Assembly: GCA_005239175.1 (NCBI GenBank)
Contig: ML241294.1
Span: 445,275 to 509,274, forward strand
Length of the DNA: 64,000 nucleotides
Direction: 5' to 3'
Source of the DNA: a halophilic archaeon SHRA6
Lineage (GTDB): Archaea > Halobacteriota > Halobacteria > Halobacteriales > Haloferacaceae
Shown: piece after piece, positions 24,607 through 55,635 of the stretch
Layout of the letters: each line of letters begins with the position of its first letter
How positions within the stretch are numbered: position 1 is the first letter of the stretch
The notes under the pieces: model-generated
Database searches by the model: none
Told to the model about the DNA's origin: nothing
Seen by the model: only the letters and a program-made list of their open reading frames with translations
Made by a program: the position numbers and the translations under genes

Positions 24607-24666
24607 GTAGTGTGTACGGTGTGTAGGCTCTGTTGAAATCCTCAATCAGTGATATGTTTTAACGGT

Positions 24667-24697
24667 CGTGCTGAATATAGAGGTTAGATTCAGCACG
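24667..24697. repeat. Subterminal hairpin of cassette A
   Basis: CGTGCTGAAT and ATTCAGCACG form a perfect 10-bp stem with an 11-nt loop, about 41 bp inside the left terminal repeat. A related stem occurs in the right arm of cassette B at 55095-55120. Confidence 0.8.
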
Positions 24698-24831
24698 ATC
24701 GCAGTGTTCGTTTCACGTTGAAAAAGTTGGACACACGCTCACTACGCCTGCGAATTTTTGCAGAATTAAATTACGCTGGCCGAGTTGTATAACCCCCCGT
24801 TGTTACAATGCTCGCATACGATTTGTGAACC

Positions 24832-25878
24832 ATGGATATCCAGTTTGCTGTCTCACGAGCAAAACCCGCTATTCGCATCTTTAGTGAAAAGAACGTAACA
24901 TTTCTCGCCGGCAGTATTGCATACAGCGCGTTCATCTCACTTGTTCCACTAGTCATGTTCTTCCTCCTTGGGGTCTCTGTGTTCGGTGCGCCCGAACTAC
25001 AGCAGCAGATAATCGAGGTGGCGACCGACAGCGTCTCTCCATCGGTCGGCGGCGTTATGGAGGTGATGATCGAAGAGCAACGTGACGCCGGCCCAAGCTC
25101 GACGATCAGTGCCACTCTCATCGGGGTTTTCACTCTTGTCTGGGGGGCGATTAAGGTATTCCGTGGGCTCGATACAGCCTTCTCTGAGATCTATGAGACA
25201 ACCGATCAGGGGTCGTTCCTCGGGCAGATCAAAAAGAGCCTTGTAGTACTTTTCACCCTCACGCTGGGCGTCATCGCGATGGTCGGCACGACTATCTTCG
25301 TCGCATTCTTCTCGTCAGTCCCCTTCATTGGGCTCTTGGCCTCTCTGCTACTGATCGTCGGTCTCTGTGGTGTGTTTTTCCCAATGTACTACCTGTTTCC
25401 AAACATCGACGTGTCGCCACGGGAAGTGCTTTCAGGGACGATCGTCGGGGCCGTCGGTTGGGCGATCCTACAAGTGCTTTTTCAGGTGTACGTCTCTCTG
25501 AGCGGCAGCGGGGGCGGGAGTCTCATCGCAAGTATCCTCCTGTTGGTCACCTGGCTGTACTTCAGCGCTGTCGTATTGTTGCTCGGGGCTGCGGTCAACG
25601 CTGTTGGCCATGCCGACGCAACCGCCGACGAGCGGGAGGAGTCTTCCGTATTGGATACTGAGATGACCCGCGGCGAGGCAGCGACGTATCTCCGGCGGCT
25701 TCGTGAGGACCTCACCGGCCGATTCGAAGGAATGCGGCCAACAAGTAAGGGAACCGTCGTCGAACGCAACCCTCCGAGAGGCGCCATCTCCATCACAGAA
25801 TGGGCCCGAGAAACCGAGGACGGAAAAACTCACGAGGTCCAGTTGGAGTGGGACGCAGACAGCAACAGCGAGGACTGA
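24832..25878 (+). CDS. YihY/BrkB-family membrane protein
   Basis: 348 aa. Residues about 1-270 contain six hydrophobic segments with the YihY signature FLAGSIAYSAFISLVPLVMF near the N-terminus and LLVTWLYFSAVVLLLGAAVN near the last helix. The C-terminal about 80 residues are hydrophilic. Family function is unsettled; it was once called ribonuclease BN in error, and some members are putative permeases. It is the sole gene between the inverted repeats of cassette A, and its reading frame is intact. Confidence 0.85.
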   Translation: MDIQFAVSRAKPAIRIFSEKNVTFLAGSIAYSAFISLVPLVMFFLLGVSVFGAPELQQQIIEVATDSVSPSVGGVMEVMIEEQRDAGPSSTISATLIGVFTLVWGAIKVFRGLDTAFSEIYETTDQGSFLGQIKKSLVVLFTLTLGVIAMVGTTIFVAFFSSVPFIGLLASLLLIVGLCGVFFPMYYLFPNIDVSPREVLSGTIVGAVGWAILQVLFQVYVSLSGSGGGSLIASILLLVTWLYFSAVVLLLGAAVNAVGHADATADEREESSVLDTEMTRGEAATYLRRLREDLTGRFEGMRPTSKGTVVERNPPRGAISITEWARETEDGKTHEVQLEWDADSNSED

Positions 25879-26122
25879 GCCACAGCGGAGGGTCACCCTA
25901 TTGAGGCAAGGAATTGGTGGAAGTACATGCTTGCTTGCATGTTCAATTCCGGGCGCAATTATTCATTTATCTCGTTAGATATCAACTCCCCAACGACCGA
26001 TTCGCGCCCTATATTTAGCACGCCATTCGTATCAACTGCTGAGGATTTCAACAGAGCCGGCGTGTACGGGAGCGCAGCTGCCGCAACAGCCCACGAGACG
26101 GCTGGGGAACGCCCAGTCGTGG
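25879..26122. other. Right arm of cassette A and flank
   Basis: No gene. Holds the right subterminal word (ATATTTAGCACG near 26011) and the terminal repeat ending at 26058, then 64 bp of host sequence before the convergent DUF5778 gene. Confidence 0.6.
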
Positions 26123-26515: not shown

Positions 26516-26556
26516 TGACCGAAAATTCGACTGGGAGGACTAAACGCCTGATGATT

Positions 26557-26701
26557 TGATCGCGTCAGCAGAGACGATTATGAGTTGATCGCGCCAACAG
26601 AAACGATCGAGAATTAATCGCGCCAACAGAAACGATCGAGAATTAATCGTGTCAGCAGAAGCTATCGAGAATTAATCGTACCAACAGAGACACTCACAGG
26701 G
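26557..26701. repeat. Five tandem 29-bp units
   Basis: Units start at 26557, 26586, 26615, 26644 and 26673. Units 2 and 3 are nearly identical (core ATCGCGCCAACAGAAACGAT); units 1, 4 and 5 are diverged. There are no spacers, so this is not a CRISPR. The array lies in the divergent region between the DUF5778 gene and the membrane protein gene at 26803. Confidence 0.9.
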
Positions 26702-26773
26702 CGATCGCGTCGGTCGCGTCGATCGCGCCGATCACCTTCGTAAAATATCAATCGTGCTAATTGGGGACGTAGG

Positions 26774-52502: not shown

Positions 52503-52947
52503 CGTCGACGATTTGTGATCGGGGGTTGGTCTAGCCTGTTGCTCTCATCTGTTTGTCGATCAGTTTGAGGAGGGAGTGGCCCGTTCGATCGTCATAGTCT
52601 CTCGCGCGCGGAAAAATCTTCAAAAATTTGTGAGCCGGGTTACGCTGTTCCGCGACCCGCGATCGAGATTGGTGTCAAAACCGATCCTGTTACGAAGTAT
52701 TGGTAACTGGATTCTCTCTACGCGTACCTTCTCGCTATGTACGGACTCCTTTTTCGAAATCGCATGACTGCCCCCACATCGCTCACCTATTCAAGTGTAT
52801 CCGGCAAGGTGGAGTGGTCAAACATGTAGCTGACGAATTAGTAAACCTCTCAACGGGTGATTTAATTTGACACCATTATGTTTCATACTACTGAATCTCA
52901 TAATGTGTGATAAAAATAATTATTTTGTTATAATCTAATTTGTAGAG
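52503..52947. other. AT-rich intergenic region
   Basis: 445 bp without a supported gene. It becomes markedly AT-rich from about 52860, just before the HalOD1 gene; TTATAATCT near 52928 is a possible TATA element for that gene. It contains one stretch rich in CGATCG (52560-52690), so part is native. Confidence 0.45.
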
Positions 52948-53217
52948 GTGGGAGACACACAAGAATTTTATTACGAACCAGAAGAAGGAGAGCAGCTAAG
53001 TTCGGCTGTCGTTACAGCGGTCGCAAAGGCCCATGACGAGAACGCGATTGAGCAAGAGTGGGTTATCAGCAACGACATAAATACGGACGCTCTCGACGGG
53101 TTGTTCAAAGAACGAAAACTCAACATGACGCTCCAGTTCGAAGCAGATACTACAACAGCTACGATCATGGCCGATAGGGATGGGTCTCCAATCATCAAAA
53201 TTGAATCACACCGCTAA
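52948..53217 (+). CDS. HalOD1 output-domain protein
   Basis: 89 aa from a GTG at 52948. Matches the halobacterial output domain 1: FYYEPEEGEQLSSAVVTAVAKA at the N-terminus, then ALDGLFKERKLNMTLQFEADT and a final strand. Stand-alone HalOD1 proteins are abundant in haloarchaea, often in accessory regions; they are thought to be signalling modules with unknown partners. Composition is less GC-rich than neighbours. Confidence 0.82.
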   Translation: MGDTQEFYYEPEEGEQLSSAVVTAVAKAHDENAIEQEWVISNDINTDALDGLFKERKLNMTLQFEADTTTATIMADRDGSPIIKIESHR

Positions 53218-53484
53218 AATCTGGCAAAATTTAACGAGCCGACTGGTTCAGCTGAGGATATATTTATACTATAGGATTTCAAGGCTCTGCTGAATACCGC
53301 ACGTGAATGTGATCCGAACCGAGGCTGATCTACGGGAGAGGGTGATCGGTCAGTACAATGGCTTTAATAAACATGATAGTCTATGATATACATGGCGTGC
53401 TCCAAAAGAGGTTGGGGCCTTGGGAGCGTCTGAGGCCATCGCTCCTATGATAGTAATCGATGAGTATCCAGTCTTCGCGGGCAC
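53218..53484. other. Degraded mobile-element ends
   Basis: Low-GC region without a gene. At 53273-53300 it has AGGATTTCAAGGCTCTG followed by CTGAATACCGCAC, which looks like a deleted head-to-tail junction of the inverted-repeat ends seen in cassettes A and B. Confidence 0.4.
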
Positions 53485-53877
53485 GGGTCCAAACTATAAT
53501 TTTTGAACGGGGGGACACTCTCCAGCGAGTCACCGAATCCGCTCATGTCAAAACCCGCCCCTCAATCAGGGAAATCACGACATACAAACTTCCCCCGCCT
53601 TCCCGCTGCTCCCGTTCTCTACGAAGGGCCGGCTGAATCGGTAGGGGGGAAGAGCAATTAGAAGTCCCGCAGTCGAGTACGGCGATGATGTTTTTGAAGG
53701 ACTCGCAATCAAGAATTTCGAAACCAGCCAGAAGGCGAAATATCGATCGTCCGAATTTAAAAAGCGAACGGGAATCAGAACCAGGACTCCGATGACGCCG
53801 TCGGATTCGAAGAAGATGCAAGCGTAGTTCTGGCACAGCAGTTCACTACAGAAACCCGAATCAAGAAAGAGATAGAC
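53485..53877 (+). pseudogene. Decayed gene, 5' part, interrupted by cassette B
   Basis: Three successive frames give protein-like stretches that together read as one gene: TIIFERGDTLQRVTESAHVK, then AVEYGDDVFEGLAIKNFETS and AKYRSSEFKKRTGIR, then DDAVGFEEDASVVLAQQFTT with a final IKKEID at the edge of cassette B. At least two frameshifts are needed. The family is not recognised. The 3' part may continue at 55164. Confidence 0.45.
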
Positions 53878-54040
53878 GGCTCTGTTGAAATCCTCTGAGA
53901 CTGACAGGTACCGATTGCTGAATACAGAGGTTCTATGCAGCACGGGTTTCTCTCTGGCGGGGTGGTGGCGAGGATGATCTGAACGGTAGTGGAGGATGCG
54001 TCCAAATCCTCGTAAAACCGTATCAACGGCCCACGAGACG

Positions 54041-54046
54041 TATATA
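54041..54046 (+). promoter_or_regulatory. TATA element inside cassette B
   Basis: TATATA centred about 25 bp before the ATG at 54069; the cassette therefore seems to carry its own promoter for the cargo gene. Confidence 0.55.
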
Positions 54047-54068
54047 CTCACAAAGAGTAGCTCGTAGT

Positions 54069-54893
54069 ATGCAAAACGGTGTCTGGATAACGGCAAGTGA
54101 CGAGATAGACACGGCGCGGATGGTCGAACTCGGAGTTCTCGCCGAGGGGTCGGGCTGGGACGGGGTGTTCGTCAGCGACTCGCTTCCTTTTACGGAGCAC
54201 CCTGACCCGTGGGTTGTACTGGCGGGCATTGCCGCACAGACTGAAACGATCCGCTTGGGCACGTGGGTCGTTCCGTTGCCCAGGCGTCAACCCTGGCAGG
54301 TCGCACAGGAGGTTGCAACCCTCGACCGGCTCTCGGGAGGCCGCGTCATTCTCGGCGCCGGAATCGGGAACAGCGACGATTACGACGACTACGGAATGCC
54401 CTACGAGCCCCGCGAACGCGGCGAGCGACTCGACGAGACGCTCGACATCGTTATCGGCCTATGGGCCGGAGAACCGTTCAGCTACGATGGGAAGCACTTC
54501 CAACTTGACGATGCGGTGGTTCAGCCAACTCCTGTCCAAGAACCACACGTGCCCATCTTGTTGGGGTGCTGGTGGCCGAACAAGAAACCCATCCACCGCG
54601 GAGCCCGCTGGGACGGCATCATGCCGTTCTTCCCATCGCTCATCAATGCCGAAGCGGGACCCCATGGCGAGGAGGAGACGGGGTCCCCCGAGGAGGAGGT
54701 GCGGGACGCCTTGGCGTTCTACCGCGATGTCGCCGACGAGCCGGGTGATGTCGTGTTGCCGACAATCCCCAGCGAGGACCCCACGGCCTTCGCCGAGACC
54801 GCAGCGGAATTGGGGGTGACCTGGCAGCTGGCGACCGATCTCGGGGGGGACCTAAACGCCGTTACAGAGCGCATCCGCGAGGGACCGCCGTAA
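54069..54893 (+). CDS. LLM-class flavin/F420-dependent oxidoreductase
   Basis: 274 aa luciferase-like TIM barrel. Typical segments are AEGSGWDGVFVSDSLPF, GIAAQTETIRLGTWVVPLP, VATLDRLSGGRVILGAGIGN, and PYEPRERGERLDETLDIV; the late part (VPILLGCWWPNKKPIHRGARW) is also family-like. It would reduce or oxidise a substrate with F420 or FMN; the specific reaction is unknown. It has no CGATCG and lies alone between the inverted repeats of cassette B, so it was probably acquired with them. Confidence 0.87.
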   Translation: MQNGVWITASDEIDTARMVELGVLAEGSGWDGVFVSDSLPFTEHPDPWVVLAGIAAQTETIRLGTWVVPLPRRQPWQVAQEVATLDRLSGGRVILGAGIGNSDDYDDYGMPYEPRERGERLDETLDIVIGLWAGEPFSYDGKHFQLDDAVVQPTPVQEPHVPILLGCWWPNKKPIHRGARWDGIMPFFPSLINAEAGPHGEEETGSPEEEVRDALAFYRDVADEPGDVVLPTIPSEDPTAFAETAAELGVTWQLATDLGGDLNAVTERIREGPP

Positions 54894-55094
54894 GGACTGA
54901 GGTTCCCTGAGGTTCGCCTTCGATACAGCGGCTGTGAAAGCTACATCGAGGTCATTCGAGACTACTGTCCGGGTTCCGTACTTTCTGACTTACTACCTCA
55001 TTAGCCTCTGTAAAACGCTCCTAGAGCCGATCATTGAGAATCGTGTCTGTCTATATCTACCAGTTCAGTTTGTCTCCGTCAGACGGAGCCTCCG

Positions 55095-55120
55095 TGCTGA
55101 ATACGCATCTATATTCAGCA
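55095..55120. repeat. Subterminal hairpin of cassette B
   Basis: TGCTGAATA and TATTCAGCA form a perfect 9-bp stem, about 43 bp inside the right terminal repeat, mirroring the hairpin of the left arm of cassette A. Confidence 0.8.
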
Positions 55121-55163
55121 TAGCCTCCCTAAACTATCAGTCACTGAGGATTTCAACAGAGCC

Positions 55164-55367
55164 CGATAGACAGAATGAGAGACGATCGGGATGGAGATGA
55201 TGGAGGCCCTGTGGTCGCGGGTCTTTGACGACATTATCTCCGAAGAGTTTGAGACGATCTTTCTCGGGAACCACGTTCTGAACACCAAGTGGTTCCGATC
55301 GGAGGTTGCCGGGATTATAGCGAAGACCCTACAGCGGATTCTCTCTCGACCAATGGATCGGTACTAA
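55164..55367 (+). pseudogene. Decayed gene, 3' part, beyond cassette B
   Basis: An intact frame from the ATG at 55191 to the TAA at 55365-55367 encodes 58 aa (MEMMEALWSRVFDDIISEEF; ending ILSRPMDRY). It may be the 3' end of the gene at 53485-53877, which breaks off at the other side of the cassette; joining needs one more frameshift. The family is not recognised, and it may instead be a small independent protein. Confidence 0.4.
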
Positions 55368-55560: not shown

Positions 55561-55635
55561 TGGGTTGGGGCAGATTCGAACTGCCGACCTGCTCCGTGTG
55601 AAGGAGCCGTCATAACCTGGCTAGACCACCAACCC
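55561..55635 (-). tRNA. tRNA-Val (CAC)
   Basis: Minus-strand cloverleaf: acceptor GGGTTGG with CCAACCC and discriminator A; anticodon stem GCTCC/GGAGC with loop TTCACAC giving anticodon CAC; T-arm with GTTCGAAT. 75 nt, no intron, no encoded CCA. It marks the right edge of the accessory region, but no att-like repeat of its 3' end was found. Confidence 0.93.

Follow-up and report, generated by a model that had tools for sequence, protein, structure and literature searches.

The window, a 64,000-nucleotide stretch of contig ML241294.1 (positions 445,275 to 509,274) from the haloarchaeon SHRA6, contains at positions 53878-55163 a 1,286-bp element, here termed cassette B, in which exact 18-bp inverted repeats enclose one gene and no transposase. 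The terminal repeat (GGCTCTGTTGAAATCCTC) lies at 53878-53895 on the forward strand and at 55146-55163 on the reverse strand and, as the original prediction had it, is identical to the repeats of a second element, cassette A (24626-24643 and 26041-26058). In total, the window holds four matches to this repeat, forming the two inverted pairs of cassettes A and B, where shuffled sequences lead one to expect 0.06. Cassette B is flanked by an 8-bp target duplication with one mismatch (7/8), AGATAGAC on the left (53870-53877, forward strand) and CGATAGAC on the right (55164-55171, forward strand); the GATAGAC initially noticed outside both ends corresponds to the seven matching bases of this duplication. 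The hexamer CGATCG is indeed absent from cassette B, against 6.4 occurrences expected from its density in the window (Poisson P = 0.0017); however, the native density is one per approximately 200 bp, not one per 250 bp as first stated.

The cargo of cassette B is an intact gene (54069-54893, forward strand) encoding a 274-amino-acid oxidoreductase of the LLM class (PF00296, E = 6.4e-42). It is the only real open reading frame of the cassette: the list of open reading frames and a profile search revealed neither a transposase nor a remnant of one. A TATA element, TATATA, was recognized from sequence at 54041-54046 on the forward strand, approximately 25 nt upstream of the start codon, in agreement with the expectation of one intact oxidoreductase gene with its own TATA element. 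A TATA element approximately 25 nt before the ATG is the pattern of leaderless haloarchaeal genes, and its position here would fit a leaderless transcript of the LLM gene. The protein is nearest to F420-dependent subfamilies, yet it scores under every subfamily cut-off shown (e.g., 150.6 bits against TIGR03619, whose cut-off is 166.9); the solved structures nearest to it are F420-dependent enzymes, and the cargo is probably an F420-dependent oxidoreductase. This gene was not found in the congener, and of 393 other genomes sampled from the order only 3, all of them incomplete, have relatives, with identity of no more than 53%. A scan of one genome per species across 85,000 species returned only metagenome-assembled genomes (MAGs) from soda-lake sediment and a weak planctomycete match, and no relative above 53% identity was found in any genome searched. 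Thus, an unbroken region that carries the LLM gene without repeats in many relatives, named at the outset as the observation that would speak against a mobile element, was not encountered: the congener lacks the gene, as do the other sampled genomes except those three.

The flanks of cassette B are private to the host genome, with no match among 171 genomes of the family. When the right flank, the left flank, and the joined flanks were searched in 40, 24, and 171 genomes, respectively, only the side of the tRNA-Val gene was matched; because the flanks are private, no empty site is demonstrable for cassette B. The neighborhood has features of its own. A segment with a HalOD1-domain gene (52683-53545, gene at 52948-53217) has a 10-bp direct repeat (TGTCAAAACC) on either side (52673-52682 and 53546-53555), and since the sequences outside it are contiguous elsewhere in the same genome (C3:27688-27803), it has the appearance of another insertion, unrelated to cassette B and 0.3 kb to the left of it. 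At 53283-53357, a cassette end that has degenerated (4 mismatches) precedes 72 bp with 79% identity to sequence close to an element end in the congener (G001 C58); this is likely a relic of an older cassette. On the other side lies the tRNA-Val gene (55561-55635). In the congener (G001, L195, C62), approximately 9.3 kb of inserted DNA separates tRNA-Val from the downstream gene, and a 23-bp copy of one tRNA-Val end is located approximately 100 bp off, which makes an integrative element at this tRNA gene probable.

The conserved ends of the cassettes extend over approximately 65-73 bp and follow a common layout: the 18-bp repeat, a TGAYAG motif, and then a core (GCTGAATACAGAG) at a distance of approximately 43 (S type) or approximately 48-50 (L type). 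Most cassettes have these two non-equivalent types. When 52 elements, some from draft genomes, were typed by simple rules, both ends could be assigned to S or L in 24, of which 21 have one end of each type (p = 2.8e-4). Cassette B has an S end on the left (53878-53942, forward strand; repeat, TGACAG motif, short spacer, core GCTGAATACAGAG...CAGCA) and an L end on the right (55091-55163, reverse strand; repeat, TGATAG motif, longer spacer, core GCTGAATATAGA). Over 68 bp, its S end shares 92.6% identity with the S (right) end of a cassette with a GNAT acetyltransferase gene in the same genome (C1:80094-80896), and over 54 bp its L end shares 85% identity with the L end of that cassette; the L end of cassette B also shares 89% identity, over 56 bp, with the right end of another cassette (C2:917737-919774). 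Judged by these ends, cassette B and the GNAT cassette are the same container with different cargo. In haloarchaeal plasmids, S ends occur in 48 and L ends in 65. Homologs of the LLM gene were not found within intact cassettes; in a contig of one of the soda-lake sediment MAGs (Natronomonas, L190), a homolog is followed after approximately 1 kb by a genuine S-type end where the contig stops; the other end is missing, and the case is suggestive only.

A genome-wide search for the end sequence had been proposed as a check on the original prediction. Across the host genome (3.36 Mb in five contigs), the end pattern matched 51 sites with up to three mismatches, and the reversed pattern, used as a control, matched none. 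These sites form at least 15 end-paired elements, 0.34-2.6 kb long, whose cargo is unrelated, and no transposase was found inside the 15 host pairs. In addition to the LLM gene of cassette B and the YihY gene of cassette A, the host cargo comprises a GNAT acetyltransferase, a universal stress protein (Usp), an alpha/beta hydrolase, HicA with a DUF7387 partner, an aldo-keto reductase (AKR) with a methyltransferase, a metallophosphoesterase beside an HNH-domain protein, and unknowns. CGATCG occurs at 0.77 per kb in the cassettes, versus 2.3 per kb in their own flanks and 4.95 per kb in the window. More than 30 further end-paired elements were found in relatives. Many sister elements have perfect (8/8) target duplications, and among pairs chosen by their ends alone, duplications matching at 7 or more of 8 positions were seen for 9 of 15 host pairs and 17 of 25 pairs from relatives, compared with 0.17% of mismatched flank pairs. 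We used these counts and set aside that of 28 of 49 elements with 8/8 duplications, which is biased because the duplication helped to select the pairs.

The HicA cassette occupies the same site in both congeners, with 97.8% identity, so some cassettes are kept by descent. Cassettes without a transposase also reside on named plasmids: one of 2,444 bp with the perfect duplication TCTTAGGC in Halobaculum limi (plasmid NZ_CP120469, L235:1284-3727) and one of 2,704 bp with the perfect duplication GAGTCGTT in Halobaculum litoreum, both with S/L ends. On one side of the H. limi cassette, 87 bp separate two S-like ends, an arrangement suggesting that the cassette grew by recruiting a neighboring end. 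Miniature elements (MITEs) of 124-125 bp with the same ends, most of them with perfect 8-bp duplications, were seen on a plasmid of Halobacterium sp. DL1 (L228:51-175) and in two other genomes (L148:1889-2013 and L157:2912-3035). In IMG/VR, one contig has an unpaired cassette end, and the open-access literature searched gave no match to the end sequence.

Cassette A (24626-26058, forward strand) has its L end on the left and its S end on the right, encloses a YihY/BrkB gene (24832-25878), and is flanked by the duplication GGTGTGTA/GGCGTGTA (7/8). In the congener, the two flanks adjoin without the cassette (G001 C16:4875-6147). Thus, the empty target proposed as a further check was found for this sister cassette, not for cassette B. 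A relocated copy of the core of cassette A, 95% identical, is present elsewhere in the congener (G001 C19), inside an 1,830-bp element (L123:2933-4762). Compared with this copy, the cargo of cassette A is inverted relative to the end types, and the outer and inner parts of its ends disagree in type at both ends (log-odds +12.9 and -16.8), whereas they agree in the congener. The same double mismatch was seen in the AKR cassette of the host (C3:496). In cassette A, the inner end halves are exchanged relative to the outer ones, which indicates that the cargo was inverted at the core GCTGAATAYAG. Inside the congener's YihY element there is a degenerate junction of an L and an S end, which gives the impression of two fused cassettes. 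Directly to the right of cassette A (26553-26726), a 29-bp unit (GATTTGATCGCGTCAGCAGAGACGATTAT...) is repeated in tandem, with five copies. The YihY cargo class recurs in another genus: on a plasmid of Halobacterium salinarum KBTZ03 (L226:572-3552), a phosphate transporter gene and a YihY gene lie between two perfect ends, with flanks that do not match.

A transposase is found between the same inverted repeats outside the host. In related haloarchaea and on named plasmids, these repeats, identical to the cassette repeat or differing from it by 1-2 mismatches, enclose a 273-amino-acid transposase of the IS5 family (NF033579, 219.7 bits, cut-off 140). Perfect 8-bp duplications flank such elements at L129 (ACATGAGA), L133 (AAACCGTC), L134 (GAGGATGT), L137 (TATGGGTC), L152 (TTTGCTTT), and L154 (AAAAATCT), and the element at L227 likewise has cassette termini and an 8-bp duplication. 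They usually carry at least one passenger gene; for example, the 1,969-bp element of Halomontanus rarus (NZ_CP135524) has the IS5 transposase, a TauE/SafE gene, and AATCATTC on either side. The claim of a mobile cargo-carrying family, with the same ends and different cargo, is therefore borne out by the elements in host and relatives, by their duplications, and by this autonomous IS5 partner in relatives and plasmids. Autonomous copies mostly pair a T end (GAGTTACAG, approximately 52 bp before the transposase start) with a D end (TTCTTCAGACA) on the far side, and mixed elements, with T and L ends (L142) or D and L-like ends (L041 and L144), link the cassettes to the transposase-bearing set. 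An S end was not seen on any transposase-bearing element, so the case for its recognition is based on the TGAYAG motif and the first 18 bp that the ends have in common. No match to the transposase was found in phages. An IS5 element of the host at C1:485133-486058, with the perfect duplication TAAGATTG, has a different inverted repeat (GGCTCTGTAGTTTC), and its transposase, the nearest in the host, is only 44% identical; it is therefore not the obvious partner, and the host cassettes are orphans at present.

We consider it very probable that positions 53878-55163 are a non-autonomous element of the mobile insertion cassette (MIC) kind, mobilized in trans by an IS5 transposase. In the best reading of the sequences, the cassettes would belong to an unusually large archaeal family with asymmetric ends. 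The S and L ends, each with the 18-bp terminal repeat and the TGAYAG motif, would be the recognition ends of the 273-amino-acid transposase, and a foreign gene with its own promoter would occupy the place of the transposase between them. The transposase would act in trans, now or earlier, from a plasmid resident in the same cell or from an element entering it, and would excise or copy the segment and place it in a new 8-bp target. It is the ends rather than the cargo that would define the family, the same ends having collected many unrelated accessory genes in the host. The cassettes were apparently moved by a transposase that the host no longer encodes. We infer transposition, mobilization in trans, the source of the transposase, and the mode of cargo capture from comparison of sequences.

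An unlikely alternative is that cassette B arose by deletion from one autonomous, passenger-bearing IS5 transposon, which lost its transposase in place and kept a passenger. Autonomous IS5 elements with the same inverted repeat do carry passengers (L152, L142, and that of H. rarus), so that loss of the transposase would yield a cassette, and in Haloarcula sp. JP-L23 a transposase relative (68% identity) is located directly beside a YihY gene, the cargo type of cassette A; the right end of that locus was looked for and not found. However, no remnant of a transposase is present in cassette B, and this reading is already weakened by the difference between the S/L ends of the cassettes and the T/D ends of the autonomous elements. 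In addition, near-identical S and L ends are common to unrelated cargo, which indicates that the ends are older than their pairing with any cargo. It is more doubtful that the ends are recombination sites, integron-like or used in homologous exchange, with cargo swapped between resident end pairs rather than transposed as a unit. The exchanged inner end halves of cassette A and the same pattern at C3:496 speak for such exchange, whereas element-specific target duplications and the empty site of cassette A argue for insertion of whole units, and S ends fold no better than shuffled sequences (z -0.6 and -1.4). Exchange at the ends can, however, act in addition to transposition.

Two further explanations are very improbable. 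That a native gene came by chance to lie between two independently inserted MITE-like repeats might be entertained because 125-bp MITEs with cassette ends exist (L148 and L157), but the flanks of cassette B match at 7 of 8 positions, it has one S and one L end, and no close relative has the LLM gene, whose composition is unlike that of the host. An IS6/IS26-type (replicative, pseudo-compound) or IS1595-type element as the maker of the ends is the least probable explanation of all. IS6/IS26 was considered because the cassette repeat (GGCTCTGTTGAAA) resembles the IS26 terminus, and IS1595/ISH4 because of the 8-bp duplication, which both families also produce. Yet the readable haloarchaeal ends associated with PF13610 (DDE_Tnp_IS240) are GGCACTGTCTAG, GTGTTCAGATAAG, or TCGTGTTTAG, PF12762 (DDE_Tnp_IS1595) is absent from the host and the resolved ends in relatives differ, and among elements with readable ends no transposase of either family was found with the termini of cassette B. 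Of the IS5-family features, cassette B has the termini and the 8-bp duplication and lacks an IS5 transposase of its own.

Trans-mobilization of cassettes by an IS5 transposase would have consequences beyond this locus. One transposon end type packages single genes (for oxidoreductases, stress proteins, transporters, and toxin-antitoxin pairs) across many genera and plasmids, and the hosts may be without a transposase. Haloarchaea exchange genes readily, and the cassettes would offer a concrete and testable way by which single accessory genes could spread horizontally in archaea. With the S and L end sequences as a search key, cassette cargo can be sought in any haloarchaeal genome, and the ends are a possible gene-delivery tool. 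It is conceivable, although on balance we doubt it, that haloarchaea share a general cassette-exchange system in which asymmetric S/L ends are reusable containers for single accessory genes, spread by plasmids, with the IS5 transposase possibly in another replicon or cell and with the end cores as crossover points for inversion of cargo and its swapping between containers; it would be an archaeal counterpart of the integron cassette pool. To our knowledge, no integron-like cassette system is generally recognized in haloarchaea. Like cassette B, integron gene cassettes are exchangeable units with single accessory genes, often toxin-antitoxin systems or enzymes. Unlike them, the cassettes described here are two-ended units with dispersed sites, 8-bp duplications, and their own promoters, and their S ends lack attC-like folding.

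Among transposon derivatives, haloarchaeal MITEs resemble the cassettes in that they have no transposase and transposon-related ends and are assumed to be mobilized in trans; that they move in a genome lacking a functional partner transposase has also been noted (PMC3119063). However, the MITEs of Haloquadratum walsbyi do not exceed approximately 500 bp, and a likely protein-coding open reading frame is present in a single family (PMC3119063), whereas the cassettes carry whole genes of known families and cassette B, at 1,286 bp, is neither short nor non-coding. Insertion sequences with passenger genes form a class termed tIS, described in a review of the IS6 family (PMC7986276). The autonomous IS5 partners with passengers are of this kind; cassette B and at least 14 sisters have no transposase.

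The closest resemblance is to MICs, whose features recur in cassette B: inverted repeats of an insertion sequence, absence of a transposase, an intact gene with a predicted promoter of its own, and a target duplication. IS231 belongs to the IS4 family. MIC231 of Bacillus cereus is mobilized in trans by the transposase of IS231A, and mic-qnrD is another such cassette; as in cassette B, IS-type inverted repeats surround a non-transposase gene with its own expression signals, no transposase is present, and the target is duplicated (PMC3913671). On the other hand, the MICs described in the open-access literature searched are bacterial, and MIC231 goes with IS231, whereas the cassettes reported here are archaeal, of the IS5 family, and have asymmetric S/L ends, and their host has at least 15 of them with unrelated cargo and without the partner transposase. 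Thus, what sets cassette B apart from described MICs is the IS family and the domain of life, together with the asymmetry of the ends, the number of elements in the genome, and the absence of the partner.
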